Shown here: one piece after another, positions 22,367 through 50,714 of the stretch
How the letters are laid out: each line of letters starts with the position of its first letter
How positions within the stretch are numbered: the stretch's first letter is position 1
Assembly (NCBI GenBank): GCA_020832285.1
Contig: JAFIFB010000045.1
Location: 1-64,000, forward strand
DNA from: Balneolaceae bacterium
GTDB taxonomy: Bacteria; Bacteroidota; Rhodothermia; Balneolales; Balneolaceae
Direction of reading: 5' to 3'
DNA length: 64,000 nucleotides
Made by a program: the position numbers and the translations under genes
Notes under the pieces: generated by a model
Seen by the model: only the letters and a program-made list of their open reading frames with translations
What the model was told of the DNA's origin: nothing
Databases searched by the model: none

Positions 22367-22924
22367 GTGAAAACCAAAGCTGATTCAGGCCATTCCTTTT
22401 TAAAATCACCCATCTTTCTTTGCGGAATGATGGGGTCTGGAAAATCGACTGTGGGAAAAGCACTTTCAGACATGCTAAGTATGCCCTTCTCCGATCTGGA
22501 CACACTCATTGTGAATCAAGAAGGAATATCCATCCCGGAAATATTTGAGAATAAGGGTGAAAGCGGTTTTCGTATGATTGAGCAGAAGCTGTTATTTCAG
22601 AACGCAAAGACAACCAAAGGGGTACTTGCTCTTGGAGGCGGTGCCCTTCAAAACCAGCAACTTGTGGATCATGTAAAATCATACGGCTGGCTTGTATTCC
22701 TTGAAGCTCCGTTGGAAGTACTCGTAAACCGGCTCAAATCTGGCAAAGGGCGTCCAATGCTCAATAAAACTGAAGTAAAAAACCTTGAAAATCGAATAGA
22801 AAACCTTTTGAAAGAGCGACTGCCTTACTATCATCAGGCACACATTATCATTCAAACCGGTTCATCAAGCCAAAAACATGTGGCCGAACAGATTGTAAAA
22901 AAAATGAAATCGTATGAAGCATAA
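22367..22924 (+). CDS. aroK: Shikimate kinase
   Basis: A 185-residue P-loop kinase that phosphorylates shikimate at O3 (step 5 of chorismate synthesis). It has Walker A GMMGSGKST (residues 20-28), the substrate-binding FSDLDTLI, GESGFR, the Walker B-like GGGAL, and the lid KGRPML. The start is GTG, 10 bp after the rqcH-like stop. It overlaps aroB by 11 bp, so two shikimate-pathway steps are translated together. Confidence 0.93.
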   Translation: MKTKADSGHSFLKSPIFLCGMMGSGKSTVGKALSDMLSMPFSDLDTLIVNQEGISIPEIFENKGESGFRMIEQKLLFQNAKTTKGVLALGGGALQNQQLVDHVKSYGWLVFLEAPLEVLVNRLKSGKGRPMLNKTEVKNLENRIENLLKERLPYYHQAHIIIQTGSSSQKHVAEQIVKKMKSYEA

Positions 22925-24035
22925 ACTCAGTATCCGGTCATCAGCCGGAACCTACCCGGCTTTTGCAGGTGAAAATATTCTCGAAGAAAGTCTGAACGAG
23001 GTTCTTGAAAATCACGTCAAAGACAAACTTTTTATACTGGCGGATGAAAATGTGCTCCGCCACCACCAGGAACACATTAAACATATAGCTTCTTCGATTG
23101 CCGGGGATATTCATCTCATTTCAATTCCCCGGGGGGAATCGAGCAAATCGGTCAAGTTCTGGTCCCGTTCGGTTGATTTTCTGCTCCAAAACGGAGCCAG
23201 GCGTAATACACCCCTTGTGGTAATAGGTGGTGGAGTGACGGGCGATCTGGGCGGATTTGTTGCTGCTACCACTCTGCGTGGCATGCCTCTTATTCACGTA
23301 CCCACCACTATTTTAGCGATGGTTGACAGCTCCATTGGGGGTAAAACCGGTATTAACCATCAAACCGGAAAAAATCTGATCGGATCGTTCTACCAGCCCA
23401 AAGCTGTGATTGCCGATACCGCATTTCTGCGTTCACTGCCCCGAAACGAATGGATCAACGGACTTAGCGAGATTTTGAAATACGGTGCCATCCACGATGG
23501 TAAAATCTTCAGTGAAGCGAAAATTTTTCTGAATGAACGAACGGACGACATTCCCCGTCAAAAACTAATTCCTTTAATCGCTAAATGCATCGGCATCAAA
23601 GCTGATATTGTGGAAAAAGATGAATTTGAAGCTGGTATTCGTGCGTTTTTGAATTTTGGGCATACTTTTGCCCACGCTCTTGAAAAAGCGTGTGATTTTG
23701 ATAAGATCAGCCACGGTGAAGCTGTTTTCCTCGGAATGCTTGCTGCTCATAAGCTATCAGCTGATCTGGGTGCCAATCTTCCCGGAAATGATCTTGATCC
23801 GTTTCGTAAACTATACAGCTACAGAGTATCCGAAGAAAGCTTATCTTGCAACGATTTAAATAAATTTATGCTTTCTGATAAAAAACGAACCGGAAAGCAC
23901 TTTACATTCGTTGTACTTGAAAAGTGGCAAAAACCGGCACTGAAAACAGTTAATGATCAACAGCTTATCAATAATGCCTGGAATGTTGTTTTTGAAGAAT
24001 TAAAAAGCTGCAGGCAAACAGACATCAACGCTTGA
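22914..24035 (+). CDS. aroB: 3-Dehydroquinate synthase
   Basis: A 373-residue NAD- and metal-dependent enzyme that converts DAHP to 3-dehydroquinate (step 2 of the shikimate pathway). Conserved blocks: GGGVTGDLGGFVA, PTTILAMVDSSIGGKTGIN, GLSEILKYG, FGHTFAHALE and SHGEAVFLGM, with the zinc-binding Glu and His residues. It starts inside aroK, and its TGA stop overlaps the TTG start of tamB (TTGA). Confidence 0.94.
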   Translation: MKHKLSIRSSAGTYPAFAGENILEESLNEVLENHVKDKLFILADENVLRHHQEHIKHIASSIAGDIHLISIPRGESSKSVKFWSRSVDFLLQNGARRNTPLVVIGGGVTGDLGGFVAATTLRGMPLIHVPTTILAMVDSSIGGKTGINHQTGKNLIGSFYQPKAVIADTAFLRSLPRNEWINGLSEILKYGAIHDGKIFSEAKIFLNERTDDIPRQKLIPLIAKCIGIKADIVEKDEFEAGIRAFLNFGHTFAHALEKACDFDKISHGEAVFLGMLAAHKLSADLGANLPGNDLDPFRKLYSYRVSEESLSCNDLNKFMLSDKKRTGKHFTFVVLEKWQKPALKTVNDQQLINNAWNVVFEELKSCRQTDINA

Positions 24036-27000
24036 TTCTACGTTTTATACATACCATCTGGAAGTTTTTCTGGCGCACATTTTTTGTGCTGATGGTTATG
24101 GGTATACTCTTGATAGGTATTGCAATTGGCCTGCTCCAGATTCCGCAGAGCAAAGATTATATAAAAAATGAAATAGAAACCACATTTAATGAGCAGTTTG
24201 AAGGCAGCCTTACAATCGGTAACATGAGCGGATTCCTGCCTTTCACAGCAAAAGCAGAAGCCGGCTACATCTATGCACCGGGGGACAGCCTTAGCCCGGT
24301 TCTCTCTTTCGAATCGGCCGAAATTAAAATAACCTGGTGGGAACTGATTCAGCGAAACCTGGTCATCTCCTCACTCGAAGTTACTTCGCCTTCTATTCAT
24401 ATCGGTTTTCTTGAGGATGATTTAGGGCTTTCCAAAGCTTTTCAACAAAAAGAACAGCAGCCACAATCCCCCATCCTTGATGAAGACGGCACACCAAGAC
24501 TGCTCACTCGAATAAGTATATTTGCACCTTCCATTTCTGTTATTGATGGGCAGGTTAATGTGGATAGCTCCGTTGAACTTCCTGAAAATTTACAACTTCC
24601 TTCTCCCCTTTTTGTCCAAAATCTGAATTTCACTGTTTTCCTGGAAGTAACCGATACAGAAATATTCTTTGATTTGCCCGACTTTATCGCAGAAATTCCC
24701 GATTCACCCTACGAATTTCTTGAGCTCAGAGGACAGTTTTACAACGATAATCGCTACTTCGAACTGAACCGGTTCCGTATTGGCACCGAACTGGGTAATG
24801 CCGATTTCAGTTTTGAAGCATCCCCTGTAAACATTTTCCGGGAAAATATTGCAGAACAGTTTAAAAATGCATCCTATCGGTTTCAGATAACGGAAAGCTC
24901 ATTCAAATCCGGTCTTGTTCGTCAGTTCACCGATGCCTATCCCGACTTTGAGAATGATCTTGAACTCGAACTCATCTCGGAAGGCACAGCTGAAAAATAT
25001 TATATTGACAAGCTTCAGGCCAATGTAGGAGAGTCGTCGGTTTTGATTTCGGCACAAGCCTACCAGCTTTTCAGCCCGGAATTCGCTTATTTTGCCCGGC
25101 TTGAAAATGTTGTGATTCATCCAGAGAAACTGGATTGGATCTCGAACACTTATTTTGATGGCCAGTATGATCTTGAACGCTACCAGCTCAGCACGATACG
25201 TGGTGAACTGATGGGTGATTATACTGCACTGACCACCGATTTCAGAGCAGAAACACAGGCCGGTTCTTTATTTCTCAACGGCAGCCTTTCTTTTGATGAA
25301 CCCATCACCTATGACTTGTTTTTTGAAGTAGATTCGTTGGATATCACACCATTTCTGGCTGATACAGTTAATACCAGCATTATCCGCGGAAGCATTACTT
25401 TAGACGGCACTGGCACTGGTCAGGAAGCCAGTTTCACCAGCACCATCGACCTGGGCCAAAGCCAGATCTATGGCCACTATGCCGACTCCTTCATCGCAGA
25501 GCTGATATATGCATCTAACCAGTTCAATTATGACATCCGTGGCGGAGACACAGAATTGTTCTTCTCTGCCAGCGGACTTTACGGATTCGGAGACGGGCAA
25601 AAAACCCTGGTTACAGAAGGCGAGGTTCGAAACCTCGACATCAAAACGTTTTATCACGATTTCCACGCTGACACCACCAATTTCAATAGCACATTTTCCA
25701 CGAACCTGGAGTGGACCTCACAAGATGACCTTACCGGGCGTGTTAGTTTTGAAATAGCTCCATCCCTTATCAATACCGATACACTCCGCGCTCACCAGTT
25801 TTATGCAGATTTGCAGGACATCAATCAAGACTCCCGGCGGCTTAGGGTCACCAGTTCCTTTTTTGACGGTGAAATTACAGGCACTCTGCAACCGGAGCTT
25901 ATCCGGGATTATGCGAAATATTGGTCTGCCTATCTGAAAGAACGGGTCGGTGAAGAGTTCTTATTTAATCCGGACTATTTTGAATCGGAACCGGCTTCGG
26001 ACTGGGCCTTTTCCGATGGGGAAAACAGGACGATAGATGTTGCCGTAGACATGAATGTAAAAGATCTTTCCCTGTTTCGAAAATACGTTCCCGATCTGCC
26101 AGATCTGCAGAGCAGTGCCAGGTTCAGCGCATCCATCAACACATCACAGGAACGTTTTTTAATCACCGGAAGCTTGCTCGATGAAAGTTTTCGTTATGGT
26201 GATATTGCAGCAGAAAATTTCAATGCCGCTTTCACGGCCAGTTTCCGGCATGACAGCAAACTGAAAGAGTCGAGTACAGTAGACCTTCAGCTCAGCAGTG
26301 ATCAAACTGAAATTCGTGGTATTGAACTGAAAGACAGCTACCTCAACCTGACAATGAGAAATGACTCACTTGGGGTTGTACAGTACTTTGAACGTCTGGA
26401 AGATGATTTGCGAGTCGAATCTGCTTTCACCGGATTTTTAAGGCCTGATAAGTTTGAAGTGATTATTGATGAACTCTCTGCCGGAACTTCCGAATATGAC
26501 TGGTATGCTGAAGGGAACCCTGTCATAAGCTATACTGAGGGGAAAAAACTCAATATAGAGCAACTGGTTTTAATGAGTGATACCGACTATATCGAAATTC
26601 ACGGAACCTACAGCCCCGATCCCGATGATGTGGTAGAATACACTGTGAGAGAATTCAACCTTTCAAGAATTTCTGATCTGATTGGAGGTAGAATAAAATT
26701 TTCCGGAATTCTGAATGGAGATTTCAAAACACAAACTCTAACTCGAATTCCATCTATCGAAGGAAACATCAATTTTGAAGAGGTAAGAATTCAGGAGCGA
26801 CTGATCGGAGACATCAGTCTGAGCAGTGTGTTCAACTCAGAAACAAACCAGTTCGACACCGAAATTCATGTATTCACCGATCCGGAAAAATATTCCCGAT
26901 ACTATGAAAGAAACGACGGGATTGGCCAGGATCTGCTGCTTACAGGATATTTTAAGCTCCCTGATGCTGATATCGATCCCGATGAATATCTTTATTATTT

Positions 27001-28744
27001 TGATGCCGATCTGCGCCAGGTGGATATGTGGATTGTTACCTTCATTGTGCCAGATATTGTTCCCGAAGTGGAAGGCAATTCCTCGGGTGAAGGATACATA
27101 TGGGGAACCCGCGATGATTACGATTTTTTCGCCTCATTTGATATTACTGATGTTTTTGCCCGTCCCGCATTTACAAATGTAGGCTACATATTGAATGGAG
27201 AACTGGATTTTTCTCGTCACGATGGCCTTCTCTTCAAAGATATTGAACTTCGGGACAGCCGTAACGGGCGCGGTCTGCTCTACGGTCAGGTCGACCTGGA
27301 TGATTTTTCACCTACCACGGTTCTGAATCTTACACTCGACCTGGATGATCTGCACTTCATGAACAACCCCTACGATCCTGACATCCCATTCTACGGAAGT
27401 ATCTACGGAACGGGGCAGGTGCAGATCATCGGCACCAACTTCAACCCCATGCTTCGCACAACACGTCCGGTGGTCCTTTCCCCGAGATCCCGGATCTCCA
27501 TCCCGCTGGAACCTGAAATTGAGTTTGAGCAAGACCGCCGTTTCATTCAGTTTGTAGAATCTTTTGATCTGCCCTTTTGGGACCGTCAGCTGGCCAGGTT
27601 AGACCGCCAAAATGAAGATGAAGATGGGCCCGATCTCACGTTCCTCGAACTTTTTACGATGGATCTCCAGTTCCAGGCCAGTGACCCTGTAAATGTAAGG
27701 CTGATTTTTGATCCGGTTACCAACGATATTCTCAGCGCTAATGGGACCGGGCAGGTTCGTGTTCTCCTTGAAGACCAGGATGTAAGTATGTTTGGCCGTT
27801 TTAATATTACCGGTGGCGATTACCAGTTTGTGACTGGTGATATTTTTACGCGGCGTCTTACACTTCAGGAAGGTGGTTCCATCAGTTGGTCGGGCGATCT
27901 GGTAGATGCCAGCCTGAACGTTACAGCAGTTTATCGCGCCCGTCCCAATATCTCAACGCTTATGTCTGTATCTGGCCCGGCTTCTACTGCCGATCCCGGC
28001 CAGCGGATTCCGATTGAACTGGTACTGCAAATCGGAGGAACCATTACAGCTGTAGAAAACGACTTTTTCTTCCGTGTTCCTACCGGTATTGAAGGCACTG
28101 TAGATCCAACCATAGCCAGTCAGATCAGTAATCTCAATCAAAACGAAGATGAAAAACTGATACAGGCAACCAGTATTTTGCTTAGTGGTAATTTTATCCC
28201 ATCATCCGGAGCACAGGGACTGGGGCTGGCTGAAGGCCTGTCCGGAACAGCCGTTGTGGTGAACCCGCTTATAACAAGCCAGGTAATCAATCCGCTGCTT
28301 TCCAATCAAATTAATTCTCTTCTCCGCAGTGATATCACCTTCGATATCGATTTTAATCTTACCGCCTTTAATGAAGTAGATCTCGGTGTTGCCCTGCGCC
28401 TGTTTGATGACCGTGTGATCCTCAGACGTGAAGGCCAGATAACCGGTGAACAGAGCGACATTGGAGATATTGGAGCAACCTACAGAATTAACCGGACTTT
28501 TTCGGTAACAGCATTTCACAGACAAGACCCCACTCTCGCTTACACCAGCGGTGTGGAAACCCGTCAGGCACAAGAAATGAACGGAGTTGGACTGGAAGCC
28601 CAGGTTCAATTTAATACCTGGCAGAGCCTGCGTGCACGAATTTCGAGTGCATTCAGATCGTTTTTTGGGCTGCAAGACAGAAAAGAATCAGAAGATGAAT
28701 CATTGGCCAATCAAATTCAGCCAATATCAAAAACAGATAAATGA
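24032..28744 (+). CDS. tamB: Translocation and assembly module protein TamB (DUF490)
   Basis: A 1570-residue AsmA/TamB-type protein with one N-terminal membrane anchor (about residues 10-32) and a long repetitive beta-rich body that forms a hydrophobic groove across the periplasm. The C-terminal part (about 1080-1510) is the TamB/DUF490 domain, with LRLFDDRVILRREGQI near the end. TamB-like proteins move phospholipids to the outer membrane and, with the Omp85 protein TamA, help assemble some outer-membrane proteins. The start is TTG, overlapping the aroB stop. The ATGA overlap with rnr ties the two together. An Omp85-like barrel protein is encoded two genes downstream. Confidence 0.88.
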   Translation: MILRFIHTIWKFFWRTFFVLMVMGILLIGIAIGLLQIPQSKDYIKNEIETTFNEQFEGSLTIGNMSGFLPFTAKAEAGYIYAPGDSLSPVLSFESAEIKITWWELIQRNLVISSLEVTSPSIHIGFLEDDLGLSKAFQQKEQQPQSPILDEDGTPRLLTRISIFAPSISVIDGQVNVDSSVELPENLQLPSPLFVQNLNFTVFLEVTDTEIFFDLPDFIAEIPDSPYEFLELRGQFYNDNRYFELNRFRIGTELGNADFSFEASPVNIFRENIAEQFKNASYRFQITESSFKSGLVRQFTDAYPDFENDLELELISEGTAEKYYIDKLQANVGESSVLISAQAYQLFSPEFAYFARLENVVIHPEKLDWISNTYFDGQYDLERYQLSTIRGELMGDYTALTTDFRAETQAGSLFLNGSLSFDEPITYDLFFEVDSLDITPFLADTVNTSIIRGSITLDGTGTGQEASFTSTIDLGQSQIYGHYADSFIAELIYASNQFNYDIRGGDTELFFSASGLYGFGDGQKTLVTEGEVRNLDIKTFYHDFHADTTNFNSTFSTNLEWTSQDDLTGRVSFEIAPSLINTDTLRAHQFYADLQDINQDSRRLRVTSSFFDGEITGTLQPELIRDYAKYWSAYLKERVGEEFLFNPDYFESEPASDWAFSDGENRTIDVAVDMNVKDLSLFRKYVPDLPDLQSSARFSASINTSQERFLITGSLLDESFRYGDIAAENFNAAFTASFRHDSKLKESSTVDLQLSSDQTEIRGIELKDSYLNLTMRNDSLGVVQYFERLEDDLRVESAFTGFLRPDKFEVIIDELSAGTSEYDWYAEGNPVISYTEGKKLNIEQLVLMSDTDYIEIHGTYSPDPDDVVEYTVREFNLSRISDLIGGRIKFSGILNGDFKTQTLTRIPSIEGNINFEEVRIQERLIGDISLSSVFNSETNQFDTEIHVFTDPEKYSRYYERNDGIGQDLLLTGYFKLPDADIDPDEYLYYFDADLRQVDMWIVTFIVPDIVPEVEGNSSGEGYIWGTRDDYDFFASFDITDVFARPAFTNVGYILNGELDFSRHDGLLFKDIELRDSRNGRGLLYGQVDLDDFSPTTVLNLTLDLDDLHFMNNPYDPDIPFYGSIYGTGQVQIIGTNFNPMLRTTRPVVLSPRSRISIPLEPEIEFEQDRRFIQFVESFDLPFWDRQLARLDRQNEDEDGPDLTFLELFTMDLQFQASDPVNVRLIFDPVTNDILSANGTGQVRVLLEDQDVSMFGRFNITGGDYQFVTGDIFTRRLTLQEGGSISWSGDLVDASLNVTAVYRARPNISTLMSVSGPASTADPGQRIPIELVLQIGGTITAVENDFFFRVPTGIEGTVDPTIASQISNLNQNEDEKLIQATSILLSGNFIPSSGAQGLGLAEGLSGTAVVVNPLITSQVINPLLSNQINSLLRSDITFDIDFNLTAFNEVDLGVALRLFDDRVILRREGQITGEQSDIGDIGATYRINRTFSVTAFHRQDPTLAYTSGVETRQAQEMNGVGLEAQVQFNTWQSLRARISSAFRSFFGLQDRKESEDESLANQIQPISKTDK

Positions 28745-30891
28745 GTCAAAATAAGTTAAGTTCACTTGAAAAAAGTATTATAGAATTATTGAAGTCCTAC
28801 CCCGATGCATCCATTCCGGTACCCCTGCTGGTTGATGCACTGGGACTTCCCAAAAAAAAGGGGGGCCAAAAAATTAAACGAAGCACCAACCGGCTCAAAC
28901 AGCTTGGCCATATTATGGTCACAAAAGGAAATCTTATTCGCCTTAATGAACCGGTTGTAAGTGATGAAAAATTTGTAGAGGGCAAACTGGATGTAACCAG
29001 CCATGGTGATGGCTATGTGATTGTTGAAGGCCGTGATCAGGATATAAAAATTTCTCAAAAATATATGGGAACGGCTCTCAACGGAGATATTGTAAAAGTA
29101 AAACTGCTGGGCTATCACAAAAAAAGTAAAAAACCACTCGGCCGCATTGAAGAAGTTGTGAAGCGGGCTGATACCATTTTTGTGGGCACCCTCGAAGAAG
29201 TCGCCAAAAATACTTATCTGATCAAGACCGATCAGCTTTCATCCCGTGCCGATTTTTTTGTAGATCCTGATGACCTGAATGGGGCAAAACCGGGGCAAAA
29301 AGTTACTTTCAGTCTGATCCGGTGGGATGATATACGGGGTTATCCACAAGCAAAAGTTCTCGATATACTCGGTGATGCGGGTACAAATGAAGCAAATATA
29401 CTTTCAATTCTGGCCGAAAAGCAGTTTAAAAGCGGCTTCCCCGCCGATGTAGAGCGATTCGCCGAAAATATTACCTTCGATATACCTCAACAGGAAATTG
29501 ATCGCAGGAGAGATATTCGTGATGAGGTCGTATTAACGATTGACCCTGCCGATGCCAAAGATTTTGATGACGGACTCAGCATCAAAATGCTCAATAACGG
29601 AAACTATTATCTCGGTGTGCATATTGCTGATGTTACCCACTATATGCCCAGCGGATCACCCCTGGACGAGGAAGCTTACAACCGCGGCACAAGCGTGTAC
29701 CTGGTAGACAGGGTAATCCCCATGCTGCCCGAACGGCTCAGTAACGGAGTTTGCAGCCTGAGACCAAATGAAGACAAATTAGCCTACAGCTGCTTTATGG
29801 AAATAGCACCTAACGGAAAACTGGTTGATTACTCCATTGAAGAAACGGTAATCCACTCCAAACAACGGTTTGTGTATGATGAAGCTCAGGATATTCTGGA
29901 CGGAAAAAACCAGCACAAATTCCACAACGAGCTGAAAATTTTACAGGCACTTGCAAATACACTTCTGGACAAACGATTTCGGGAGGGGTCCATCAACTTC
30001 GAAACTCCCGAACCTAAATTTGTGCTTGACGATACAGGAAAGCCTGTGGATGTGATCGTAAAAGAACGTCTCTTTGCACATAAATTGATTGAAGAGTGCA
30101 TGCTGATGGCCAATAAAACTGTATCTTATCACATTAAAACCCTTCGAAAAAAAGGTAACAAAAGTGTAAAAAACGACCACCCGTTCCTCTATCGGGTTCA
30201 CGACAAACCAGACCTTGAAAAGCTAAATAACATCCGTGAAACGGCGAAGCCTCTCGGAATCGAATTTGATCTTCACGGAACAGTTACATCAAAAACAATT
30301 AACAGCTTACTAAAACAAGTTGAAGACACATCTCTTGAAAATATCATCAATGGCCTGATGCTTCGAGCAATGGCCAAAGCTGAATATTCTCCGAAAAACA
30401 TCGGCCATTTCGGACTTGGGTTTGCAAATTATGCACACTTTACGAGTCCGATCAGGCGTTATCCAGATGTGATCGTACACAGGCTGCTCAAGCGCTACAA
30501 TTCTGGTGCAACGGAATACAATTATACCAAACTTGAAAAAATTGGTGAACATTGCAGCGAGCGGGAGCGTTATGCAGTAGAAGCTGAAAGAGATTCTGTT
30601 AAACTCAAGCAGGTTGAATTTCTTTCAGAGCGTCTCGGTTCAACTTATCAGGGGACCATAAGCGGTGTTACCGAAAATGGTCTTTACATTGTACTTGATG
30701 ATATATACTGTGAAGGAATGATTCGCGTTAGCGATCTTAAGGACGATTATTACGTTTATCATCCACAAATGCATTGTTTAATTGGCAGGTCCAAAGGCAA
30801 AAAATTCCGTCTTGGGGATACCATCAAAACAAAAGTCGCCAACACAAATCTTGAAAAAAGGCAGATCGATCTTACAATTTCAGATTTCTAA
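28741..30891 (+). CDS. rnr: Ribonuclease R
   Basis: A 716-residue 3'-5' exoribonuclease that degrades structured RNA and acts in rRNA and tmRNA turnover. The order is an N-terminal winged-helix region (about 1-75), cold-shock domains (about 80-230), the RNB catalytic domain (about 260-590) with DPADAKDFDDGLSI metal-binding aspartates, and a C-terminal S1 domain (about 630-715, GTISGVTENGLYIVLDD). It lacks the long basic tail of E. coli RNase R. It overlaps tamB by four bases and is followed 13 bp later by the next gene. Confidence 0.93.
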   Translation: MSQNKLSSLEKSIIELLKSYPDASIPVPLLVDALGLPKKKGGQKIKRSTNRLKQLGHIMVTKGNLIRLNEPVVSDEKFVEGKLDVTSHGDGYVIVEGRDQDIKISQKYMGTALNGDIVKVKLLGYHKKSKKPLGRIEEVVKRADTIFVGTLEEVAKNTYLIKTDQLSSRADFFVDPDDLNGAKPGQKVTFSLIRWDDIRGYPQAKVLDILGDAGTNEANILSILAEKQFKSGFPADVERFAENITFDIPQQEIDRRRDIRDEVVLTIDPADAKDFDDGLSIKMLNNGNYYLGVHIADVTHYMPSGSPLDEEAYNRGTSVYLVDRVIPMLPERLSNGVCSLRPNEDKLAYSCFMEIAPNGKLVDYSIEETVIHSKQRFVYDEAQDILDGKNQHKFHNELKILQALANTLLDKRFREGSINFETPEPKFVLDDTGKPVDVIVKERLFAHKLIEECMLMANKTVSYHIKTLRKKGNKSVKNDHPFLYRVHDKPDLEKLNNIRETAKPLGIEFDLHGTVTSKTINSLLKQVEDTSLENIINGLMLRAMAKAEYSPKNIGHFGLGFANYAHFTSPIRRYPDVIVHRLLKRYNSGATEYNYTKLEKIGEHCSERERYAVEAERDSVKLKQVEFLSERLGSTYQGTISGVTENGLYIVLDDIYCEGMIRVSDLKDDYYVYHPQMHCLIGRSKGKKFRLGDTIKTKVANTNLEKRQIDLTISDF

Positions 30892-30904: not shown

Positions 30905-33900
30905 ATGCGGTTGCTACAAAAATCTCTACTCATCTCCGTACTTGCGCTTTTTATCAGCACAACAGCCATTGAGGAAGCACTTGCTCAATATTTTTTCTTT
31001 GGAAAAAACCGAGTTCAATACGAACGATTCGACTGGCGTTTCATTGAAACCGATCATTTTGATATCTACTATTATGATTCAAAAAACTATCATCTCGCTC
31101 AGTTTACTGCCGAAACGGTTGAATCTTCTTTAAGACAGTTAACCGAAGACCTCGGAGATCAGCTTACAGACCGCATTCCTGTAATTATCTACGACTCACA
31201 CAGCGATTTTTCTCAAACAAACGTGGTTCAGTTACCAGTGGATGCACAGGGAATTGGGGGTGTGACAGATAAATTTAAAAACAGGATGACGCAACCATTT
31301 ATGGGGGATTATGCCGATTTCAGGCGAACCCTTCAGCACGAGTTACTTCACGCTTATATAAACGATGTTTACTACGGTGGATCTGTTCAATCAATCATGC
31401 AAAATAATATTCAGCTTGTATTCCCTCTTTGGTTTGAAGAAGGGCTTGCTGAATTTCTTGCCCTCGGCTGGGATACACAGACCGACATGTTCATGCGTGA
31501 TGCTGTGCTGAATAATGCACTGCCCCCTATTAATCAACTGAGAGGTTTTTACGCTTATCGGGGTGGCCAGGCTTTCTGGTATTACATAGCTGATCAATAC
31601 GGAAGGCCTAAAATAAACGAGATAATGCAGCGAATTAAGACCACGAGGAGTATTGAACGCTCACTGGTTCAATCACTTGGTTTGCAGCTTGATGAATTTT
31701 CAGAGCGCTGGAGAGAGTACTGGCGTCAGCGCTACTTCCCTGAGGTTGCCCAGAGACAAACCTTAAGCTCTGTAGCTACCCACCTCTCAAGACAGGCACG
31801 CACACGAACCTACGATACAAGCCCGACGATCTCCCCGCAAGGCGATCGAATTGCCATGATCACCAACCGGCGGGGTGTTTTTGATGTAATTGTAATCGAT
31901 GCAAACACCGGTGAAAGACTTAAAACTATCATTAGCGGAGCAGACAACCCGATGTTTGAGGAGTTGAATATTCTGAACCCGAACCTTACCTGGTCGCCTG
32001 ATGGTACTCAGCTTGCACTTTCCAGTAAATCGCAAGGACGATACAACCTTGCCATTGTAGACTACGAAACCACAAATACACGCACCATTCGTTTCCCTGA
32101 TCTGGATGCAATTAACTCTGTTGCCTGGTCTCCCGATGGAAGCAAAATTGCATTTGATGGAAATATCGGACCGTATCAGGATATTTTCGTTTACAATCTC
32201 GAAACCAGTGATTTTATAAATCTGACAGGTGATATTTTCACCAACAAAGAACCCGCATGGGGCCCCGATTCTGAAACCGTATATTTTGTATCAAACAGAG
32301 GCGACAAATTACAACCACACTCCTACCTGGCTGGCTACTCAGCAATGATAGATGATTCGTTCTTTAATACCGACCTTTACCGAATGCGTGTAGGAACTAA
32401 CCGTATTGAAAGGCTCACCAACACTATTTGGGATGAAACTCAGCCGACAATCACCAATGATGGTCGTATGCTCTTTGTCTCAGATCAAAATGGTATTCCT
32501 AATATTTATGAATATGACCTCGACAGCCGTTCGGTGTACCCTATTACCGACCTTCAGTCGGGAGTCATGCAAATTTCGGTTTCTCGTGATGGAACACGTC
32601 TTGCATTTAACTCCATCAACCGGGGCTTACCTGATATTTACATGATGCGATCACCTTTCAACCAAAGACGTGATGGCCCTCTGACTCCAAATGCATGGGC
32701 GGAGGAACGTGAAAGCCAGGGTCCCGGTGATCGTGTTCCAGCCATCAGATATGTACAGGAGATGATTGCCTCCCGTCCGCAGGGAAATTTTATTTCTGCC
32801 CGGTTGCTGGATCAGCCTCCTGTCCCGGAAACTTCTGAGCTAACTCAGCTTGACCCCGATGCCGTTGCAGTGGATGAAGAACCCGAGCAGGAAGAGGAAG
32901 AACGTCAAGATCCTGCACGGATTGATTTCAGAAACTATCAGTTCGGTGAATCGGTAATACGAGATACCACTATCAGGCTGAGTGACGACCCTCGGCAGTT
33001 TGAACCTGAAGGAAATATTACTGATGAAGGTTATTACCAGCCGCGTGAGTACAGGTTACAATTTTCGCCTGACTTTAGTTATGCCGCCGGTCAGTTGAGC
33101 ACCTATTACGGAACATCAGCTTTTGCGTTTGTTACACTGACAGATTTATTTGGCGATCATCAGATTTCGTTTGGTTCAAACCTTGTCTTCGATCTTCGAA
33201 ACAGTGATTATACATTCCAATACGGATATCTGCGAAATCGTACAAATTTCTTTACATCATTTTTCCACCAGGCCAGAAATTACCAGACCTTTTTTGGTGA
33301 GTTGCTGCGCTTCCGAACGTTTGGCGGTACAGTCGACTTCCAGTATCCTCTCAATCGCTACCAGCGTTTTGATTACGGTGTATCGGCCATTGGAATAGCA
33401 CGTGATTTCAGCACTGTTCAGGGACTTGGGGGCAGAAATACAGATAATGAACGCTCTTGGTTTCTCTATCCTCAATTAACCTTTACAGCTGATTATACTG
33501 TACCCGGATTCATTACACCCAGAGGTGGTAACCGTTACTCTGTAAGGCTTGCTGCAAGTCCGCCTATTGGTTCGGAGACACCGCAGTTTGCCACACTTTT
33601 AGGTGATTACAGGCAATATATTGACCTTGGAACAGGCTATTCTATTGCCCTGAGGGGATCAGGTGCCGTTTCGCTTGGAAGAGACTCGCAAACTTTTTTC
33701 ATGGGCGGAATGCTGGGCTGGATTAATCAGCGCTGGTCTGATGCAGAGATTCCATTTGATCGCCTGGCTGATACTTTCCTTACACTGCCGGCTACCCCTC
33801 TTCGTGGACACGAGTTTAACACCATTTATGGTGACAAATTTTCCCTGATCAATGCAGAGTTCAGATTTCCACTCTTTGCAGCCATACTGCCCGGGCCTAT

Positions 33901-34288
33901 TCCAATTTTACCGCTATATAATCTTACCGGTGTAGCCTTCGTGGATGCAGGTGCGGCCTGGGGTTTTGATATTCCATATTCCCGCTTTAATGATGCACAA
34001 GGCAATCCTATTGTATATCACGAAACACCGGCAAGATTCGAAGGACGAATCGGCACTAAAAGAGAGGAATATATCAACCCGAATACAGGTTTACTCAGAG
34101 AAGGCCAACCGCGGCAGGGTGATATTCCTACCAGTTTTGTAGATGGTGACATCCTGATCGGTGCTGGGTTTGGACTCCGGACGATTCTTCTCGGCCTCCC
34201 CTTCCGGTATGATATTGGCTGGCCCTACGGAAGAGGAGGTTTTCAGTCAGGTGCAATACACTATTTCTCTATAGGTATTGATTTTTAA
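30905..34288 (+). CDS. Zinc-peptidase / TolB-like propeller / Omp85-like barrel fusion protein
   Basis: A 1127-residue secreted protein (signal peptide about 1-27, ending ALAQ). Residues about 45-290 form a gluzincin-like domain with H145-E-L-L-H149 and a downstream WFEEGLAE (E178/E179) as the probable third zinc ligand. Residues about 300-580 carry six TolB/WD40-type blades (for example TWSPDGTQLALSS, AWSPDGSKIAFDG). An acidic, proline-rich linker follows (about 600-700). Residues about 710-1127 look like a C-terminal Omp85/BamA-type barrel: LRGHEFNTIYGDK, INAEFRFPLF, VAFVDAGAAWGF, FGLRTILLGLPFRYDIGWP, ending HYFSIGIDF. There are no POTRA domains; the peptidase and propeller occupy their place. 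It is last in the operon with tamB and rnr. Role unproven. Confidence 0.8.
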   Translation: MRLLQKSLLISVLALFISTTAIEEALAQYFFFGKNRVQYERFDWRFIETDHFDIYYYDSKNYHLAQFTAETVESSLRQLTEDLGDQLTDRIPVIIYDSHSDFSQTNVVQLPVDAQGIGGVTDKFKNRMTQPFMGDYADFRRTLQHELLHAYINDVYYGGSVQSIMQNNIQLVFPLWFEEGLAEFLALGWDTQTDMFMRDAVLNNALPPINQLRGFYAYRGGQAFWYYIADQYGRPKINEIMQRIKTTRSIERSLVQSLGLQLDEFSERWREYWRQRYFPEVAQRQTLSSVATHLSRQARTRTYDTSPTISPQGDRIAMITNRRGVFDVIVIDANTGERLKTIISGADNPMFEELNILNPNLTWSPDGTQLALSSKSQGRYNLAIVDYETTNTRTIRFPDLDAINSVAWSPDGSKIAFDGNIGPYQDIFVYNLETSDFINLTGDIFTNKEPAWGPDSETVYFVSNRGDKLQPHSYLAGYSAMIDDSFFNTDLYRMRVGTNRIERLTNTIWDETQPTITNDGRMLFVSDQNGIPNIYEYDLDSRSVYPITDLQSGVMQISVSRDGTRLAFNSINRGLPDIYMMRSPFNQRRDGPLTPNAWAEERESQGPGDRVPAIRYVQEMIASRPQGNFISARLLDQPPVPETSELTQLDPDAVAVDEEPEQEEEERQDPARIDFRNYQFGESVIRDTTIRLSDDPRQFEPEGNITDEGYYQPREYRLQFSPDFSYAAGQLSTYYGTSAFAFVTLTDLFGDHQISFGSNLVFDLRNSDYTFQYGYLRNRTNFFTSFFHQARNYQTFFGELLRFRTFGGTVDFQYPLNRYQRFDYGVSAIGIARDFSTVQGLGGRNTDNERSWFLYPQLTFTADYTVPGFITPRGGNRYSVRLAASPPIGSETPQFATLLGDYRQYIDLGTGYSIALRGSGAVSLGRDSQTFFMGGMLGWINQRWSDAEIPFDRLADTFLTLPATPLRGHEFNTIYGDKFSLINAEFRFPLFAAILPGPIPILPLYNLTGVAFVDAGAAWGFDIPYSRFNDAQGNPIVYHETPARFEGRIGTKREEYINPNTGLLREGQPRQGDIPTSFVDGDILIGAGFGLRTILLGLPFRYDIGWPYGRGGFQSGAIHYFSIGIDF

Positions 34289-34572: not shown

Positions 34573-34992
34573 ATGTCTACAGGTCAGGTATTGCTAACCT
34601 TAGCGGCGATTGTACTGCTCTCATATATATCGCTGAACATTCAGCAGATGTACGTGCAATCAGTAGGCAGCACTGTGGGTAGCCAGTACACTTCTGATGC
34701 ACTCAATTTTGGTAGAGATTTAAGTGAGCGAGTACAATCTTTCGCATTTAGATATGATCAGCTGATGAATGAGTTTGGAGGCTTGGATGATGTATCTGAT
34801 CCGGGCAGCAGGATTGAATTTACATCACAGGTCGGTGAATCATTTTATGCAACAGTTGAAATTTCTGATGAGGGAGAATTAATCCACAACCAAAATGGAA
34901 GAAAAGCTACGATCAGAGTTTATATTTACAATGATACTTCCGACCAGTATCAACTCCAGGCTGAATATGTAACTGCAATTACAGAGTTATAA
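34573..34992 (+). CDS. Pilin-like small anchored protein (cassette gene 1)
   Basis: A 139-residue protein. It begins MSTGQVLLTLAAIVLLSYISL, a short leader with Gly-Gln followed by a hydrophobic helix (about 5-24), then a beta-rich exported domain with an acidic surface. The arrangement recalls TadE/type IV pilin-like N-termini, but the canonical F1/E5 residues of type IV pilins are absent. It is first of three genes with the same architecture (gaps of 34 and 59 bp). No assembly ATPase, peptidase or platform gene lies in the window. No recognised family; the pilin-like label is inference. Confidence 0.55.
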   Translation: MSTGQVLLTLAAIVLLSYISLNIQQMYVQSVGSTVGSQYTSDALNFGRDLSERVQSFAFRYDQLMNEFGGLDDVSDPGSRIEFTSQVGESFYATVEISDEGELIHNQNGRKATIRVYIYNDTSDQYQLQAEYVTAITEL

Positions 34993-35026
34993 GTTATAGT
35001 AATTTTTTAAAATTTGAGTAATAACC

Positions 35027-35542
35027 ATGGGAATACAAATTGATCTTATCATCCCTCCGATTATTGTAGGCCTGTTAATTATACTGATCTTCAGAGTTAA
35101 TGCCTTTATGGTTGAAACTTCAATTGATAACAGGCTCAACAACGAAGTTCAGGAATTTGCAGATTTGACAGGAACGCTTATACAGGAAGAACTGCGTACA
35201 CTTTCAGCTTTTAATCCAAATAACCTGCCTGACAGCACTTTGACATTCGTAAACCTGGCCGGTGACAGTGTGTTTGTTTCTAAAAACAAAAGAAATTTGG
35301 AGATCATACGCCTCAACCCTAATACATCTATTCCGGACACCACAATTTATCCTTCATCTTTAAAAAGTATTTATTTCATGGCTGAACCCGATTCAGTTAT
35401 AAACCCAATGTTTATCCGGGTACAAATAGAAACGGAAAGCCGACCTGAAAGTCATGCAAGATTCAGAAATAATGTAAACACCGTTAATGCTTTTAGCGAA
35501 AAACAGATTTTTCTGCGCAATTTGGCAGTTTCATCACCGTGA
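35027..35542 (+). CDS. Anchored exported protein (cassette gene 2)
   Basis: A 171-residue protein with one N-terminal membrane helix (about residues 7-27, IDLIIPPIIVGLLIILIF), then a helical stretch (NRLNNEVQEFADLTGTLIQEEL) as in pilin spines, and a beta-rich exported domain. There is no cleavable signal peptide. It lies between two proteins of the same plan and is probably co-transcribed with them. No family recognised. Confidence 0.55.
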   Translation: MGIQIDLIIPPIIVGLLIILIFRVNAFMVETSIDNRLNNEVQEFADLTGTLIQEELRTLSAFNPNNLPDSTLTFVNLAGDSVFVSKNKRNLEIIRLNPNTSIPDTTIYPSSLKSIYFMAEPDSVINPMFIRVQIETESRPESHARFRNNVNTVNAFSEKQIFLRNLAVSSP

Positions 35543-35601
35543 ACTATGTTTTACAATTCATTCATGTATTGATAATCACAATTTAAAAATAATGTAAAGG
35601 C

Positions 35602-36930
35602 ATGGGCAAATATGCAATTTTTATTGTTTTAGCACTTACTTTTTCTCTTATCACTTATTCGCATGCTTTAAAAAACGCGCTTTTCATGTCGAATGCGCGT
35701 ACTGTACAGAGCTATAGTTATAGCCAGGCACAAAACATAGCACAAAGTGCTGCGATGTTGGCTATTACATCACTGCGAAATGATGCAAACAGTGCATTCC
35801 TGCCTAACATTGATGATATCTATTCATATCCATCTCTTAATGGTTTCCAGAATTGGGAAGAAATGCATGGCTCTTATAATCTCTCCTTAACCAACCAGGG
35901 TGATACGTTATTAGTTCTCAGGTCAACCGGAAAGTTTGAAGAAACAAATTACCTTGTAACACTTGGATTAGTCATTGGTCCGTCTGTATGGAATCCTAAT
36001 CTTGACCAGGCTCTGCATGCTGAAAATATCATTGACTTATCCAGTGGCAGCAGTGACATGATTATCGGTGAGGTTTCTATTAACAGCACTGCATCTAATG
36101 CTGTGAGGCTGGGCAGTAATAACAGGATTAAAATTACTGAAGATCTTTTTATTGGGCCTGGCGGAGATAAAGAAAGCGTACTTACCGGCAACCACAATAA
36201 TGTTGGGGGTGAAATTCAAACCCTTGACAGAAAATTAAATTATGATTTGCCAATATTTCCGCAATTCCCTACCGGATCCCCGCCTTTCACATTCAGCAAT
36301 CATTCCGAATTACATCCGGAACAATACAACGGATATTATATAAATGAAATTAACCTGCAGGGTTCAAATAATTTAACTATACACACAGGTGATGAAAACC
36401 GGGTTTTACATGTAGGCAGACTCGACATTCAATCCTCCAATATCAATATAATCGGGGATGGCAGGCTAACCATTTATGTGGAAAATTTTCTTGATATGAA
36501 AGGGAATGCAAAGATAAATGAAAACGGAGATGTAAATCAGTTGCACCTGTTTTACCGGGGAGATCCCGAAGTAGATTTATATGATGAAAGTCTTGATTTT
36601 GGCGGAAATACCCAATTCAATGGTTCATTGTATTCGCAAAAGGCAAGCATCAACCTAAATGGTACCGCAGGAATTAAAGGAAATATCATCACCGGCGGCA
36701 ATAGTGTAACTATCAACGGTAATCCATCACTTGAGCTGGATCACTCAAGGGTGATATTTGCGCCTAATGGTATTGTGAGGGCAAGAGGAAACGTTACAAT
36801 AAAAGGATCAGTGATTGCAAATGAATTTCATGGTTCGGGTAATTCCACACTTGAGTACAGCCAATTGGATGTAGACCTTCCCGACCTGGAGCAGGATGGT
36901 GGCGGATATGACATTGCCTACTGGAATTAA
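35602..36930 (+). CDS. PilX-like anchor fused to a beta-helix domain (cassette gene 3)
   Basis: A 442-residue protein. An N-terminal hydrophobic helix (about 4-22) runs into an amphipathic spine (QAQNIAQSAAMLAI) that resembles PilX-type minor pilins. From about residue 140 the sequence is a repetitive Asn/Gly/Ser-rich region (SNNLTIHTG, SSNINIIGDGRLTI, GNTQFNGSLYSQ, AGIKGNIITGGNSVTINGNP, GNVTIKGSVIANEF) typical of a parallel beta-helix, as in DUF7305-like pilus-associated proteins. It is likely surface-exposed, perhaps at a filament tip. Its stop is 31 bp from the convergent DUF4175 stop. Function inferred from architecture only. Confidence 0.6.
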   Translation: MGKYAIFIVLALTFSLITYSHALKNALFMSNARTVQSYSYSQAQNIAQSAAMLAITSLRNDANSAFLPNIDDIYSYPSLNGFQNWEEMHGSYNLSLTNQGDTLLVLRSTGKFEETNYLVTLGLVIGPSVWNPNLDQALHAENIIDLSSGSSDMIIGEVSINSTASNAVRLGSNNRIKITEDLFIGPGGDKESVLTGNHNNVGGEIQTLDRKLNYDLPIFPQFPTGSPPFTFSNHSELHPEQYNGYYINEINLQGSNNLTIHTGDENRVLHVGRLDIQSSNINIIGDGRLTIYVENFLDMKGNAKINENGDVNQLHLFYRGDPEVDLYDESLDFGGNTQFNGSLYSQKASINLNGTAGIKGNIITGGNSVTINGNPSLELDHSRVIFAPNGIVRARGNVTIKGSVIANEFHGSGNSTLEYSQLDVDLPDLEQDGGGYDIAYWN

Positions 36931-40395: not shown

Positions 40396-41277
40396 TTAGT
40401 AGATTTGATCCAAAGAAATTGAGGTTTTCATGGAGTACCGTCCATTTTTTTTCTGAATAGTAATAATCTCGTGCTCTGCATCGTGTTCCATGAACAGATA
40501 CCAATTGTGCCCGGCAGCCATTTCCAGAAATGTTTCTTTTTCTTTAAGGGTTTGAAGCGGCGCCATGTCATAACCCATTACCCAGGGAAGCGGAACATGG
40601 GCGAATGTCGGTATCAAATCGGCGGCATATACAATCGTAACATTATCATCTGTTATTACCGGAAGCTGCTGCCCCATGGTATGCCCGTCCATTGGAATGG
40701 TGTGAAGACCTTCCTCGAACCGAAAACTATCTTTCAGAAGCTTCAGGCGGCCACTTCTGCTTATTGGATCCAGATTCTCAGGAAAAAAACTGGCCTTTTC
40801 ACGTTCATTAGGGTTGTTAGCGGTCTGCCAATGCCTTTCGTTTACGTGATAATTTGCATTAGGAAACACCTCAATTAAACTTCCATTTTCATCATATTTT
40901 GTTGTACCTCCGCAGTGATCAAAATGCATATGGGTAAAAATAATATCCGTTATGTCATCAGGTGTGTATCCGATTTTTTTTAACGAAGATATCAGATCGC
41001 TTTCGCTATAATCAATTCCATATATGCTGGTCATTTTTTCATCAAACTTATCCCCGCAACCGTTGTCAACAAGATAGATTTTCCCGGTAGCTTTAGATTT
41101 TATCAGCAGGCTGCGCATAGCCATGGGTATTCTGTTATTTTCATCTGCCTCAATCTTTCTATTCCAGAGAGTTTTGGGTACGACACCGAACATTGCCCCT
41201 CCATCCAGTAAAAAGCGACCAGTCTCAACCGGGTAAAGTTCAAAATGACCCATTGTTAACGGTTTTATTTTTGACAT
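40396..41277 (-). CDS. Metallo-beta-lactamase-fold hydrolase (lactonase-like)
   Basis: A 293-residue MBL-fold protein with the zinc signature HMHFDHCGG, VDNGCGDKF upstream, MDGHTMGQQ and a later AADLIP metal ligand. The layout (HxHxDH, then His, then Asp) and length fit the AHL-lactonase / MBL hydrolase group, but many such proteins act on other esters. No signal peptide. It lies just after the terminator of the respiratory operon and is probably transcribed separately from within the 41278-41320 gap. Confidence 0.8.
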   Translation of the reverse strand: MSKIKPLTMGHFELYPVETGRFLLDGGAMFGVVPKTLWNRKIEADENNRIPMAMRSLLIKSKATGKIYLVDNGCGDKFDEKMTSIYGIDYSESDLISSLKKIGYTPDDITDIIFTHMHFDHCGGTTKYDENGSLIEVFPNANYHVNERHWQTANNPNEREKASFFPENLDPISRSGRLKLLKDSFRFEEGLHTIPMDGHTMGQQLPVITDDNVTIVYAADLIPTFAHVPLPWVMGYDMAPLQTLKEKETFLEMAAGHNWYLFMEHDAEHEIITIQKKNGRYSMKTSISLDQIY

Positions 41278-41321
41278 AACTGAATAGATATAATCGTTTT
41301 TGATGTAAATGAGAAATTCTA

Positions 41322-41357
41322 AAATAAAAAAAAGCCGATCTCTTATGAAACCGGCTT
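41322..41357 (-). terminator. Rho-independent terminator of the act/cta operon
   Basis: On the minus strand AAGCCG (41357-41352) pairs with CGGCTT (41337-41332) around a 14-base loop, followed by a run of T and ATTTTA. It lies 23 bp after the ctaF stop and so closes the twelve-gene respiratory transcript. Confidence 0.88.
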
Positions 41358-41379
41358 CTTTTTGAATGTGAAAAGTTGT

Positions 41380-41682
41380 TTAAAACGATGGTACAGGATC
41401 AACCCTGTAAAGTGTGTCCAGCAGAGTGATGCCTATTAGCAATAGGAAAAATGCAATGGACATGATAAAAAGTAAAACGTTAAATTTGGAATCCCACCAA
41501 AGATTCATAAAAAATGCCACCACAATCAGGGCTTTTACCACTGCTATTGCTATTGCAACCACTATGTTCCAGGGTTCAGGAATTTGTATCCAGGTTACAG
41601 CCACTGTAATGAAAGTGAGAACAAAGAGAGCTAAAGCAACTCCCCACAAAAATTTGGCTGATGAAATATGATGTCCACTCAT
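41380..41682 (-). CDS. ctaF: Cytochrome c oxidase subunit IV (small membrane subunit)
   Basis: A 100-residue protein with three membrane helices (about 12-32, 38-58, 68-92), matching the bacterial subunit IV family of caa3 oxidases. It lies last in the oxidase block and stabilises the complex rather than carrying cofactors. The 28-bp gap to ctaE and the terminator just downstream mark the operon end. Confidence 0.85.
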   Translation of the reverse strand: MSGHHISSAKFLWGVALALFVLTFITVAVTWIQIPEPWNIVVAIAIAVVKALIVVAFFMNLWWDSKFNVLLFIMSIAFFLLLIGITLLDTLYRVDPVPSF

Positions 41683-41710
41683 GGTTCTGTATAAATTTCG
41701 TTTCTTTCGG

Positions 41711-42367
41711 TTAGTCGATCAGGTATAATAGCGGGAAAAGGAAAATCCAGATGATATCCACAAGGTGCCAGTAGAGTCCGGTAATTTCGACGGGAGTATA
41801 ATAGCCGCTGTGAAATACTTTTTTCTTGGCCTTATATACCAGCCAGAGCATCAAACCGATTCCAACAAGAACGTGGATACCGTGAAGGCCGGTCATCATA
41901 TAGTAAATACTAAAGAAGATATTTGCCTGTTCATGCTCGATTCCTTCATAAGTATAGTAACCACCGGGAAGAATTCCTTTCCCGAATTTTTCAGCATACT
42001 CGAAGTACTTAATTACCATGAATACACAGGCAAGCCCGATAGTAATCCACAGATTTATGATGAGGCCTTTGATCTGGTTCAACTGTGCGGAACGTATCGC
42101 CATAGCCACAGTTAAGGAACTTCCAATCAAAACCACCGTATTAACCGCACCCCAAAAGGTATGGAGTTCTTCAGATGCTAAAAGATAAAGCTCGGGATAC
42201 CAGGCTCTGTATACGATATATGCAAGAAATAAGCCACCGAAGAAAAGAATTTCAGTAACCAGAAATACCCACATCCCCATTTTAGATGCTTCAAACTGCT
42301 GGTCGCTGTCAATAAAGTAGTGTTTTAGATGTTCTAATCTTTCCTCTGTTGCAGAAGGTTGAGACAT
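41711..42367 (-). CDS. ctaE: Cytochrome c oxidase subunit III
   Basis: A 218-residue membrane protein with five helices of the COX3 family. The conserved MGMWVFLVTEILFFGGLF, YYMMTGLHGIHVLVG and the C-terminal YWHLVDIIWIFLFPLLYL are present. It supports proton uptake and turnover stability of subunit I. It lies between ctaD and ctaF. Confidence 0.93.
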   Translation of the reverse strand: MSQPSATEERLEHLKHYFIDSDQQFEASKMGMWVFLVTEILFFGGLFLAYIVYRAWYPELYLLASEELHTFWGAVNTVVLIGSSLTVAMAIRSAQLNQIKGLIINLWITIGLACVFMVIKYFEYAEKFGKGILPGGYYTYEGIEHEQANIFFSIYYMMTGLHGIHVLVGIGLMLWLVYKAKKKVFHSGYYTPVEITGLYWHLVDIIWIFLFPLLYLID

Positions 42368-42384
42368 GATCGTGATTTAATGGT

Positions 42385-44124
42385 TTAGGCTTGTTCTTTT
42401 TCTGATTGTGACACGCTCACCGCTTCTTCTGCATGGTGACCGTTATGTGAAGCAGCTATTCCAAGCTGAAATTCCGACATGGGTTTGTGATAGTCGTATG
42501 GACCATTCACAATCACCGGTACATGATGGAAGTTATGTAAGGATGGCGGAGAGGAAATTTGCCATTCAAGTGCACGGCTTCCCCAGGGGTTGGAAGAAGC
42601 TCTTTTACCCTTCAGCAGTGAGTGCACAAGGTATATCGCCATAATCACGAAGGCCACTCCCATCACATAAGCACCGATTGTTGAAAACTGATGGAATGAC
42701 TGAAACTGGTCGATATAGTTGAAGTAACGCCGAGGCATGCCTTGCGCTCCCATTACAAATTGCGGAAGGAAGGTCATATTAAACCCGACGAATAGTATGG
42801 CACAAGAAATTTTTGCCCAAAATTCGCTATACATTTTTCCGAACATTTTTGGCCACCAATAGTGCAAACCTGCAAGGAATGCCATTACCATTCCACCCAT
42901 CATCACATAATGGAAGTGAGCAACTACATAGTAGGTGTCATGCAAGTGAATATCTACAGAGAGAGCTCCCAGCATTATTCCCGTAAAACCACCTATAGTA
43001 AATAGAAAAAGAAATACCTGCGCATACAGCATCGGTGTTTTCATATCGATTGATCCCCGGTACATCGTAGCCAGCCAATTGAAAATTTTAATACCAGTTG
43101 GTATACCCACAAGGAAAGTCAGGAATGAAAAGACCATGTTTGCCAGGGAAGACTGTCCGGCTGTAAACATGTGGTGACCCCAAACCAGGAATCCGATAAA
43201 AGCAATAGCCAGTGATGACAGCGCAATTGCCCAGTATCCAAAAATAACCTTACGTGAAAATGTTGATATGACTTCAGATATAATTCCAAAACCCGGAACA
43301 ATCATAATATACACAGCCGGATGTGAATAGAACCAGAAAAAGTGCTGGTAGAGTACCGGATCACCACCAAGTGCCGGATCAAAAATACCAATTTGCAATA
43401 ACCTCTCCATAGTAAGAAGAAGCAAGGTAATCGCAAGTACCGGTGTAGCTAAAATCTGAATGAGGCTGGTAGCATAAAGCCCCCAGAGATTTAAAGGAAG
43501 CTTATTCCAGGTGATACCGGGTGCACGCATTTTGTGTATCGTAACAATAAAGTTCAATCCGGTCAGGATAGATGAAAAACCCAGAATAAATACTCCGAAT
43601 GTCATCGCCATCACATTACCACTGGTTGTGGCACTATAAGGTGTATAAAAGGTCCAGCCGGTGTCTACACCCCCTGTAAAAATGGCAAAAAGTGTAAAAG
43701 CCGCACCGATAACGTAGATATAATAACTGGCAAGATTAAGTCGGGGAAAAGCTACATCTTTAGCCCCGAGCTGCAAAGGAAGTACAAAGTTACCAAGTAC
43801 AGCCGGCACGGAAGGAATCAGGAAAAAGAAAATCATGATTGCACCGTGCAGAGTAAATACCTGATTGTAGGTATCTGCATCGATAAAACTTTGCGCAGGA
43901 GTTAACAATTCCGTTCTGAGCAGTAGAGCTAAAACACCGCCCACAAAGAAAAAGAAGGTGATGGAACCAAGATACAACAGACCGATCTTCTTGTGATCTA
44001 CGGTTGTCATCCATGCCCATATACCTTTTTCTTCATTCAGGTAATGTTTTTCGGGATTTTCTTCCGGCTTAAAGCGCCGTACCTGTAATTTTTTTGTATT
44101 CGAATTTTCTTCGTTCGTTGCCAT
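42385..44124 (-). CDS. ctaD: Cytochrome c oxidase subunit I (heme-copper catalytic subunit)
   Basis: A 579-residue, twelve-helix subunit that reduces O2 at the heme a3-CuB site and pumps protons. Heme and copper ligands are visible: [13 protein letters not shown] (heme a His), [13 protein letters not shown] (CuB His and the cross-linked Tyr region), WGHHMFTAG (two CuB His), and [13 protein letters not shown] (both heme His). The YSHPAVY motif is that of A2-type, caa3-like oxidases of Rhodothermus and relatives. It starts 4 bp after the ctaC stop. Confidence 0.95.
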
Positions 44125-44128
44125 CTAC

Positions 44129-45896: not shown

Positions 45897-45912
45897 ATTT
45901 CCAAGCGTGAAT

Positions 45913-46419: not shown

Positions 46420-46440
46420 GCCAAATCAGATTGATCAGAT

Positions 46441-47640: not shown

Positions 47641-47665
47641 TTAATTCTACTTTTTTCGCTCGAAA

Positions 47666-48649: not shown

Positions 48650-48690
48650 AATCTTAAAACAGTATTGAGAAATTTGGTGTTGATGATCGA

Positions 48691-49242: not shown

Positions 49243-49253
49243 CGGTAAACTTG

Positions 49254-50681: not shown

Positions 50682-50714
50682 GTTCAGTCAGTTGCAATTA
50701 AATCCTTTGTTGAA

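Follow-up and report, generated by a model that had tools for sequence, protein, structure and literature searches.

A POTRA-less Omp85 protein with a predicted zinc peptidase and a TolB-like propeller is encoded in a conserved block with tamB in Balneolota and Ignavibacteria

Subfamilies that lack POTRA domains are an accepted part of the Omp85 superfamily, and one of them, the WD40-Omp85 class named by Heinz and Lithgow in 2014, carries an N-terminal TolB-like propeller in their place (PMC4104836). The protein described here, which we label WDO, was placed in this class by its domain layout as described for the class: it shares the TolB-like propeller, the Omp85 barrel and the absence of POTRA domains. 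In addition, it has a peptidase domain and a linkage to tamB, neither of which is mentioned in the text on WD40-Omp85 proteins (PMC4104836). An initial annotation of the locus had proposed an undescribed module, which is too strong a term given this earlier subfamily. Our literature searches for the architecture returned nothing beyond that paper and no experimental study of the class: as far as the literature searched shows, this may be why a core envelope role has been overlooked. To this known but unstudied class we add three features: a peptidase domain that, judged from sequence, appears intact, a linkage to tamB that is ancient, and a rate of evolution below half that of BamA.

The TamA/TamL–TamB module provides a second point of comparison (PMC4494059, PMC12045153, PMC12800296). 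Here, too, an Omp85 barrel is encoded in a block with TamB; in contrast to TamA and TamL, WDO has neither the three N-terminal POTRA domains nor a lipobox, and carries a peptidase and a propeller. In E. coli, TamB spans the periplasm and joins the TamA barrel by strand pairing and POTRA contacts (PMC12800296). TamB is found without TamA in many phyla (PMC4494059), and in Flavobacterium TamL and TamB are both essential and are not encoded in one operon (PMC12045153). BepA, a gluzincin, serves BAM quality control in the periplasm (PMC8423444); like it, WDO is predicted to be a periplasmic HExxH peptidase tied to outer-membrane protein assembly. Finally, PlpD has an enzyme domain N-terminal to its Omp85 barrel, as WDO does, but this is a patatin lipase domain, and PlpD has one POTRA (PMC11116518).

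The features of the locus are listed in Table 1, with positions in the window (the whole 64,000-nucleotide stretch that was analysed). Sequence inspection of the signal peptide revealed no lipobox cysteine. Peptidase_MA_2 (PF13485) matches residues 73-272 of WDO in Pfam (E 2.3e-9), and the peptidase domain, when folded alone (pLDDT 86, pTM 0.84), resembles gluzincins: M9 collagenase (Z 17), M30 (Z 15.8) and M1 (Z 13-14) are the best fold matches among those listed. This differs from BepA, which is a separate M48-TPR protein; in WDO, peptidase and barrel are parts of one chain. PF00149, which we take to be a metallophosphoesterase family and not one of HExxH peptidases, was not found in WDO. 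The 'Metallo' Omp85 class, called metalloprotease-Omp85 and defined by PF00149 (PMC4104836), was therefore rejected as a home for this protein.

Table 1. Positions of the aroK-aroB-tamB-rnr-WDO genes in the window and of the predicted domains of WDO
Feature	Position	Strand	Basis or remark
aroK	22367-22924	+	cluster member upstream in Balneolota
aroB	22914-24035	+	cluster member upstream in Balneolota
tamB	24032-28744	+	TTG start; 1570 aa; C-terminal TamB/DUF490 domain, PF04357 109 bits
rnr (RNase R)	28741-30891	+	PF00773 E 1.8e-115; between tamB and WDO
WDO gene (label for the ORF under study)	30905-34288	+	1127 aa; ORF intact
WDO domain order: signal peptide, gluzincin peptidase, TolB-like propeller, linker, Omp85 barrel			Pfam, AlphaFold2, VIA-align
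Sec signal peptide, residues 1-27 (EEALA-Q region)	30905-30985	+	by inspection
Gluzincin (MA clan) zinc-peptidase domain, residues 28-285	30986-31759	+	PF13485, fold, invariance
HELLH zinc-binding/catalytic motif, residues 145-149	31337-31351	+	sequence, conservation
Six-blade TolB-like beta-propeller, residues 286-590	31760-32674	+	PD40 x5, TIGR02800, VIA-align
Disordered (low-confidence) linker, residues 633-702	32801-33010	+	pLDDT 33-41
16-strand Omp85 barrel, residues 720-1127	33062-34285	+	PF01103, AlphaFold2, VIA-align, conservation

The propeller contains five PD40 repeats (Pfam, E 4.3e-21). TolB is both its best NCBIfam (TIGR02800) and its best PDB sequence match, and VIA-align superimposes it on TolB with Z 28.5 and on the six-blade Pizza6 designs with Z about 23. 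Residues 591-702 form a helical and disordered, poorly conserved stretch. Inside the otherwise variable, predicted-disordered linker, a DFRNYxF motif (residues 674-680, in the segment 673-680 at 32921-32944) is conserved and is possibly a docking peptide.

The AlphaFold2 model of full-length WDO, built with 63 homologues as input (pLDDT 82, pTM 0.79), ends in an Omp85 fold of about 16 strands (a manual count on the DSSP string) between residues 720 and 1127. Arg967 and Gly968 fall in loop 6 (LRGH at 966-969), a long loop that precedes strand 12, and the C-terminal residue is a phenylalanine. VIA-align superimposes about 300 residues of the barrel on BamA with Z about 21-23, with F. johnsoniae BamA the best among the matches listed. 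A whole-genome profile search scored PF01103 (Omp85) at 46.6 bits, above the cut-off, over 33239-34285, although the filters of the hmmscan Pfam run kept this model from being listed for WDO. A POTRA domain was found neither by Pfam nor in the AlphaFold2 model. The initial annotation, which had proposed structure prediction of the full protein, thus read the architecture correctly: an Omp85 barrel at the C-terminus, a HELLH gluzincin domain, a six-blade propeller and no POTRA region. Its barrel limits of about 710-1127 hold at the end, while the start lies near 720 in the model. Two of the barrel strands are joined by a loop of some 50 residues (33965-34120, about residues 1021-1072) that is shared by the family of the window's genome and one further family, whereas several others in the order lack it.

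Across 63 WDO homologues, with identities down to 34%, His145, Glu146, His149, the third ligand Glu179 and Glu183 are invariant. The same holds for Arg967 and Gly968, which are followed by Tyr, His, Phe or Trp, and the last residue is Phe in 56 of the 63 proteins and Tyr in 4. The peptidase is the most conserved domain of this alignment, with a mean column entropy of 1.27 bits compared to 1.74 for the propeller, 1.71 for the barrel and about 3 for the linker. The invariance of these seven positions speaks against a fortuitous resemblance, and for the barrel a chance likeness to Omp85 is rejected on the PF01103 score, the structural match to BamA and the residue invariance together.

None of the 42 good-quality Balneolales genomes in the sample lacks WDO. 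Across the GTDB phylum, 172 of 296 good genomes have homologues, many of the matches outside Balneolales being at paralogue level only. For the same 20 Balneolales genomes, the tree length is 6.9 for WDO, 16.1 for BamA and 14.6 for TamL. The low variability of WDO relative to BamA in Balneolales suggests a core envelope role. In the Balneolales panel, the WDO rate is less than half that of BamA and TamL and close to that of RNase R. The genome also encodes a paralogue of 981 aa on another contig (C76, L063, 6787-9732, minus strand) with HELAH, a propeller repeat and an Omp85 barrel; it has no match to a peptidase family above the Pfam cut-off, and similar paralogues occur in other genomes. HExxH is kept in distant paralogues as well. 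Two weak matches to the WDO profile HMM (L079 and L080) bear a propeller, lack both HExxH and the RG loop motif, and were rejected as members.

The genes aroK, aroB, tamB, rnr and WDO lie on one strand, with 4-nt overlaps at aroB-tamB and tamB-rnr and a 13-nt gap between rnr and WDO; the gene after WDO starts 284 nt downstream. The initial annotation had placed WDO in an operon with tamB: the linkage stands in Balneolota and Ignavibacteria, with the small correction that rnr intervenes. The three genes are on the same strand and nearly abutting in 19 of 19 Balneolales loci with full upstream sequence, and in a scan of 80 named loci no Balneolota locus with sufficient sequence upstream departs from this order. 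Outside Balneolota, where 35 loci had at least 3.8 kb of upstream sequence each and were counted by hand from tables, the block is kept in 20, mainly in Ignavibacteria, and not kept in 15, including Rhodothermales; WDO is likewise unlinked from tamB in Kryptonia and others. No aroK-aroB pair was seen upstream of the Ignavibacteria blocks. As the neighbours beyond the three-gene block differ between the phyla, its retention does not reflect a general conservation of gene order. We conclude from the gene order that the tamB-WDO linkage is ancient and spans two phyla. The neighbours of unlinked WDO genes, which include ABC-2 transporter genes and PorV-like and type IX-sorted proteins, showed no consistent function; in some genomes (L195, L101) WDO lies just downstream of the ABC-2 transporter genes.

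To place the neighbouring TamB, a tree of C-terminal TamB regions was computed; its long branches leave the fine placement unsure. The TamB of the window falls into a lineage that spans Ignavibacteria, Rhodothermales, Balneolota and Bacteroidia and roughly follows the species, whereas a second TamB of the same genome (contig C129) belongs to a separate, fully supported group. On C129 (L062, 5787-12256, minus strand), a POTRA-Omp85 of 669 aa is encoded directly upstream of this second TamB (1487 aa). A classical tamA beside tamB thus exists for the second TamB, but not for the tamB of the window. The genome further encodes a TamL-like POTRA Omp85 (contig C107, 799 aa, no lipobox), a BamA with five POTRA domains and two Omp85 barrels without N-terminal domain matches. 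When Omp85 types were sorted by length and match range in 19 other Balneolales, BamA and TamL-like proteins were found in each of them, the C129 type in 18. In genome G066, which contains the linked block, the WDO-linked TamB is the only PF04357 TamB found. Since POTRA-bearing TamL-like and C129-type (TamA-like) proteins coexist with WDO, it adds to them: a replacement of TamA or TamL by WDO is rejected. The earlier proposal of a TamA-like partner is therefore not supported as regards a stand-in for TamA; its other part, a pairing with the neighbouring TamB, finds weak support in the covariation of evolutionary rates.

Rates were compared on fixed trees in several Balneolota and Balneolales panels. 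Among 31 Balneolota and five genes, tamB-WDO ranked first of ten pairs (rho 0.55), ahead of aroB-aroK (0.46), which act in the same pathway. The tamB-WDO value was 0.30 in a panel of 15 genomes and eight genes, and 0.36 and 0.44 in panels of 20 and 16 genomes; in the panels that include BamA and TamL, tamB-TamL ranged from -0.12 to 0.13 and tamB-BamA was negative. The C129-type pair TamA2-TamB2, which has the canonical tamA-tamB layout, reached 0.55 (15 genomes, eight genes). Together with the aroB-aroK value, this suggests that the method can see functional pairs. However, rnr-tamB and aroB-tamB (both 0.44) are as high as tamB-WDO in some panels, so operon membership alone could explain the tamB-WDO value, and a residual-based version gave 0.11. 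The covariation weakly favours WDO over BamA and TamL as the correlate of tamB.

The peptidase and propeller carried by its barrel, and a gene that has stayed beside tamB across two phyla, make it probable that WDO is an as yet uncharacterised factor of outer-membrane assembly and quality control. Our favoured reading, which we hold tentatively, goes further and makes WDO a periplasm-facing assembly and quality-control station on the pathway of the TamB encoded next to it. After cleavage of the signal peptide, the barrel would insert into the outer membrane, with propeller and peptidase facing the periplasm, as the fold and the analogy to PlpD suggest. TamB, spanning the periplasm, may supply the outer membrane with lipid or with outer-membrane proteins that are still unfolded, and TamB or its clients could dock on the barrel gate, or on the propeller and the linker motif. 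Clients that stall would then be trimmed or removed by the peptidase, a role like that of BepA at BAM. In this reading WDO works alongside the TamL-like protein and not in its place. Having no POTRA domain, it could not use POTRA contacts with TamB and might pair with it by barrel strand pairing. We count in its favour the retained tamB-rnr-WDO order, the phylum-wide lineage of the window's TamB, the sole, WDO-linked TamB of G066, the rate covariation, the invariant residues of the peptidase and its rank as the most conserved domain, the presence throughout the sampled Balneolales, the short tree compared to BamA and the Omp85 fold. Against it stand the use of POTRA domains in the TamA-TamB contact of E. 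coli (PMC12800296), the equally high covariation of tamB with its other operon neighbours in some panels, the presence of a TamL-like protein where TamL is the known partner of TamB in Flavobacterium (PMC12045153), the 15 unlinked loci, and rnr, which is linked as firmly as WDO.

The main rival reading is an outer-membrane quality-control protease and insertase that works independently of TamB, much like a fusion of BepA, BamB and BamA. The partner of TamB would then be the TamL-like Omp85 encoded elsewhere, and shared regulation of envelope growth would be all that the operon reflects. We hold this to be only a little less likely than our favoured reading: all Balneolales tested, this genome included, have a TamL-like POTRA Omp85, TamL and TamB of Flavobacterium copurify although encoded in separate operons (PMC12045153), WDO is unlinked in Rhodothermales, Kryptonia and others and has WDO-like paralogues elsewhere, and the block includes the cytosolic rnr. 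It is at odds with a linkage that persists across two phyla while other neighbours change, and with a tamB that covaries more with WDO than with TamL.

WDO might also be secreted in a type Vd-like manner, with its barrel exporting the peptidase and propeller to the cell surface. It would then share the layout of PlpD, which was once thought to be secreted, and the long, predicted-disordered linker would suit this. We nevertheless consider this very unlikely: the PlpD enzyme domain has been shown to stay periplasmic (PMC11116518), the propeller resembles periplasmic TolB, a folded peptidase and propeller would probably not fit through a 16-strand barrel, and the gene is core and slowly evolving, unlike that of a typical secreted enzyme. 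A purely structural WDO, its peptidase domain serving as an inactive scaffold, is still less probable: peptidase activity is a prediction from sequence, but the five residues His145, Glu146, His149, Glu179 and Glu183 are kept in 63 of 63 homologues, the domain is the most conserved of the protein, and distant paralogues retain HExxH.

In phyla without a canonical tamA-tamB operon, the conserved block makes WDO a specific candidate for a protein that partners TamB or works beside it; it would be an Omp85 protein that brings its own protease. The stronger proposition, that the main TamB of Balneolota and Ignavibacteria works with a POTRA-less Omp85 carrying its own protease and propeller, we regard as rather unlikely. 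If true, it would represent a second architecture for the translocation and assembly module, with delivery and proteolytic quality control combined in one outer-membrane protein.

A promoter and terminator scan found sites no more numerous than in shuffles. Downstream of WDO, three small genes (34573-36930, plus strand) are possibly a minor pilin cluster: the first resembles, by eye, a protein with a pilin-type leader, and the third matches DUF7305. On the minus strand, a run of respiratory genes (40396-53747) includes, by eye, a 1010-aa 4Fe-4S protein and cytochrome oxidase-like subunits, possibly an alternative complex III with an oxidase.
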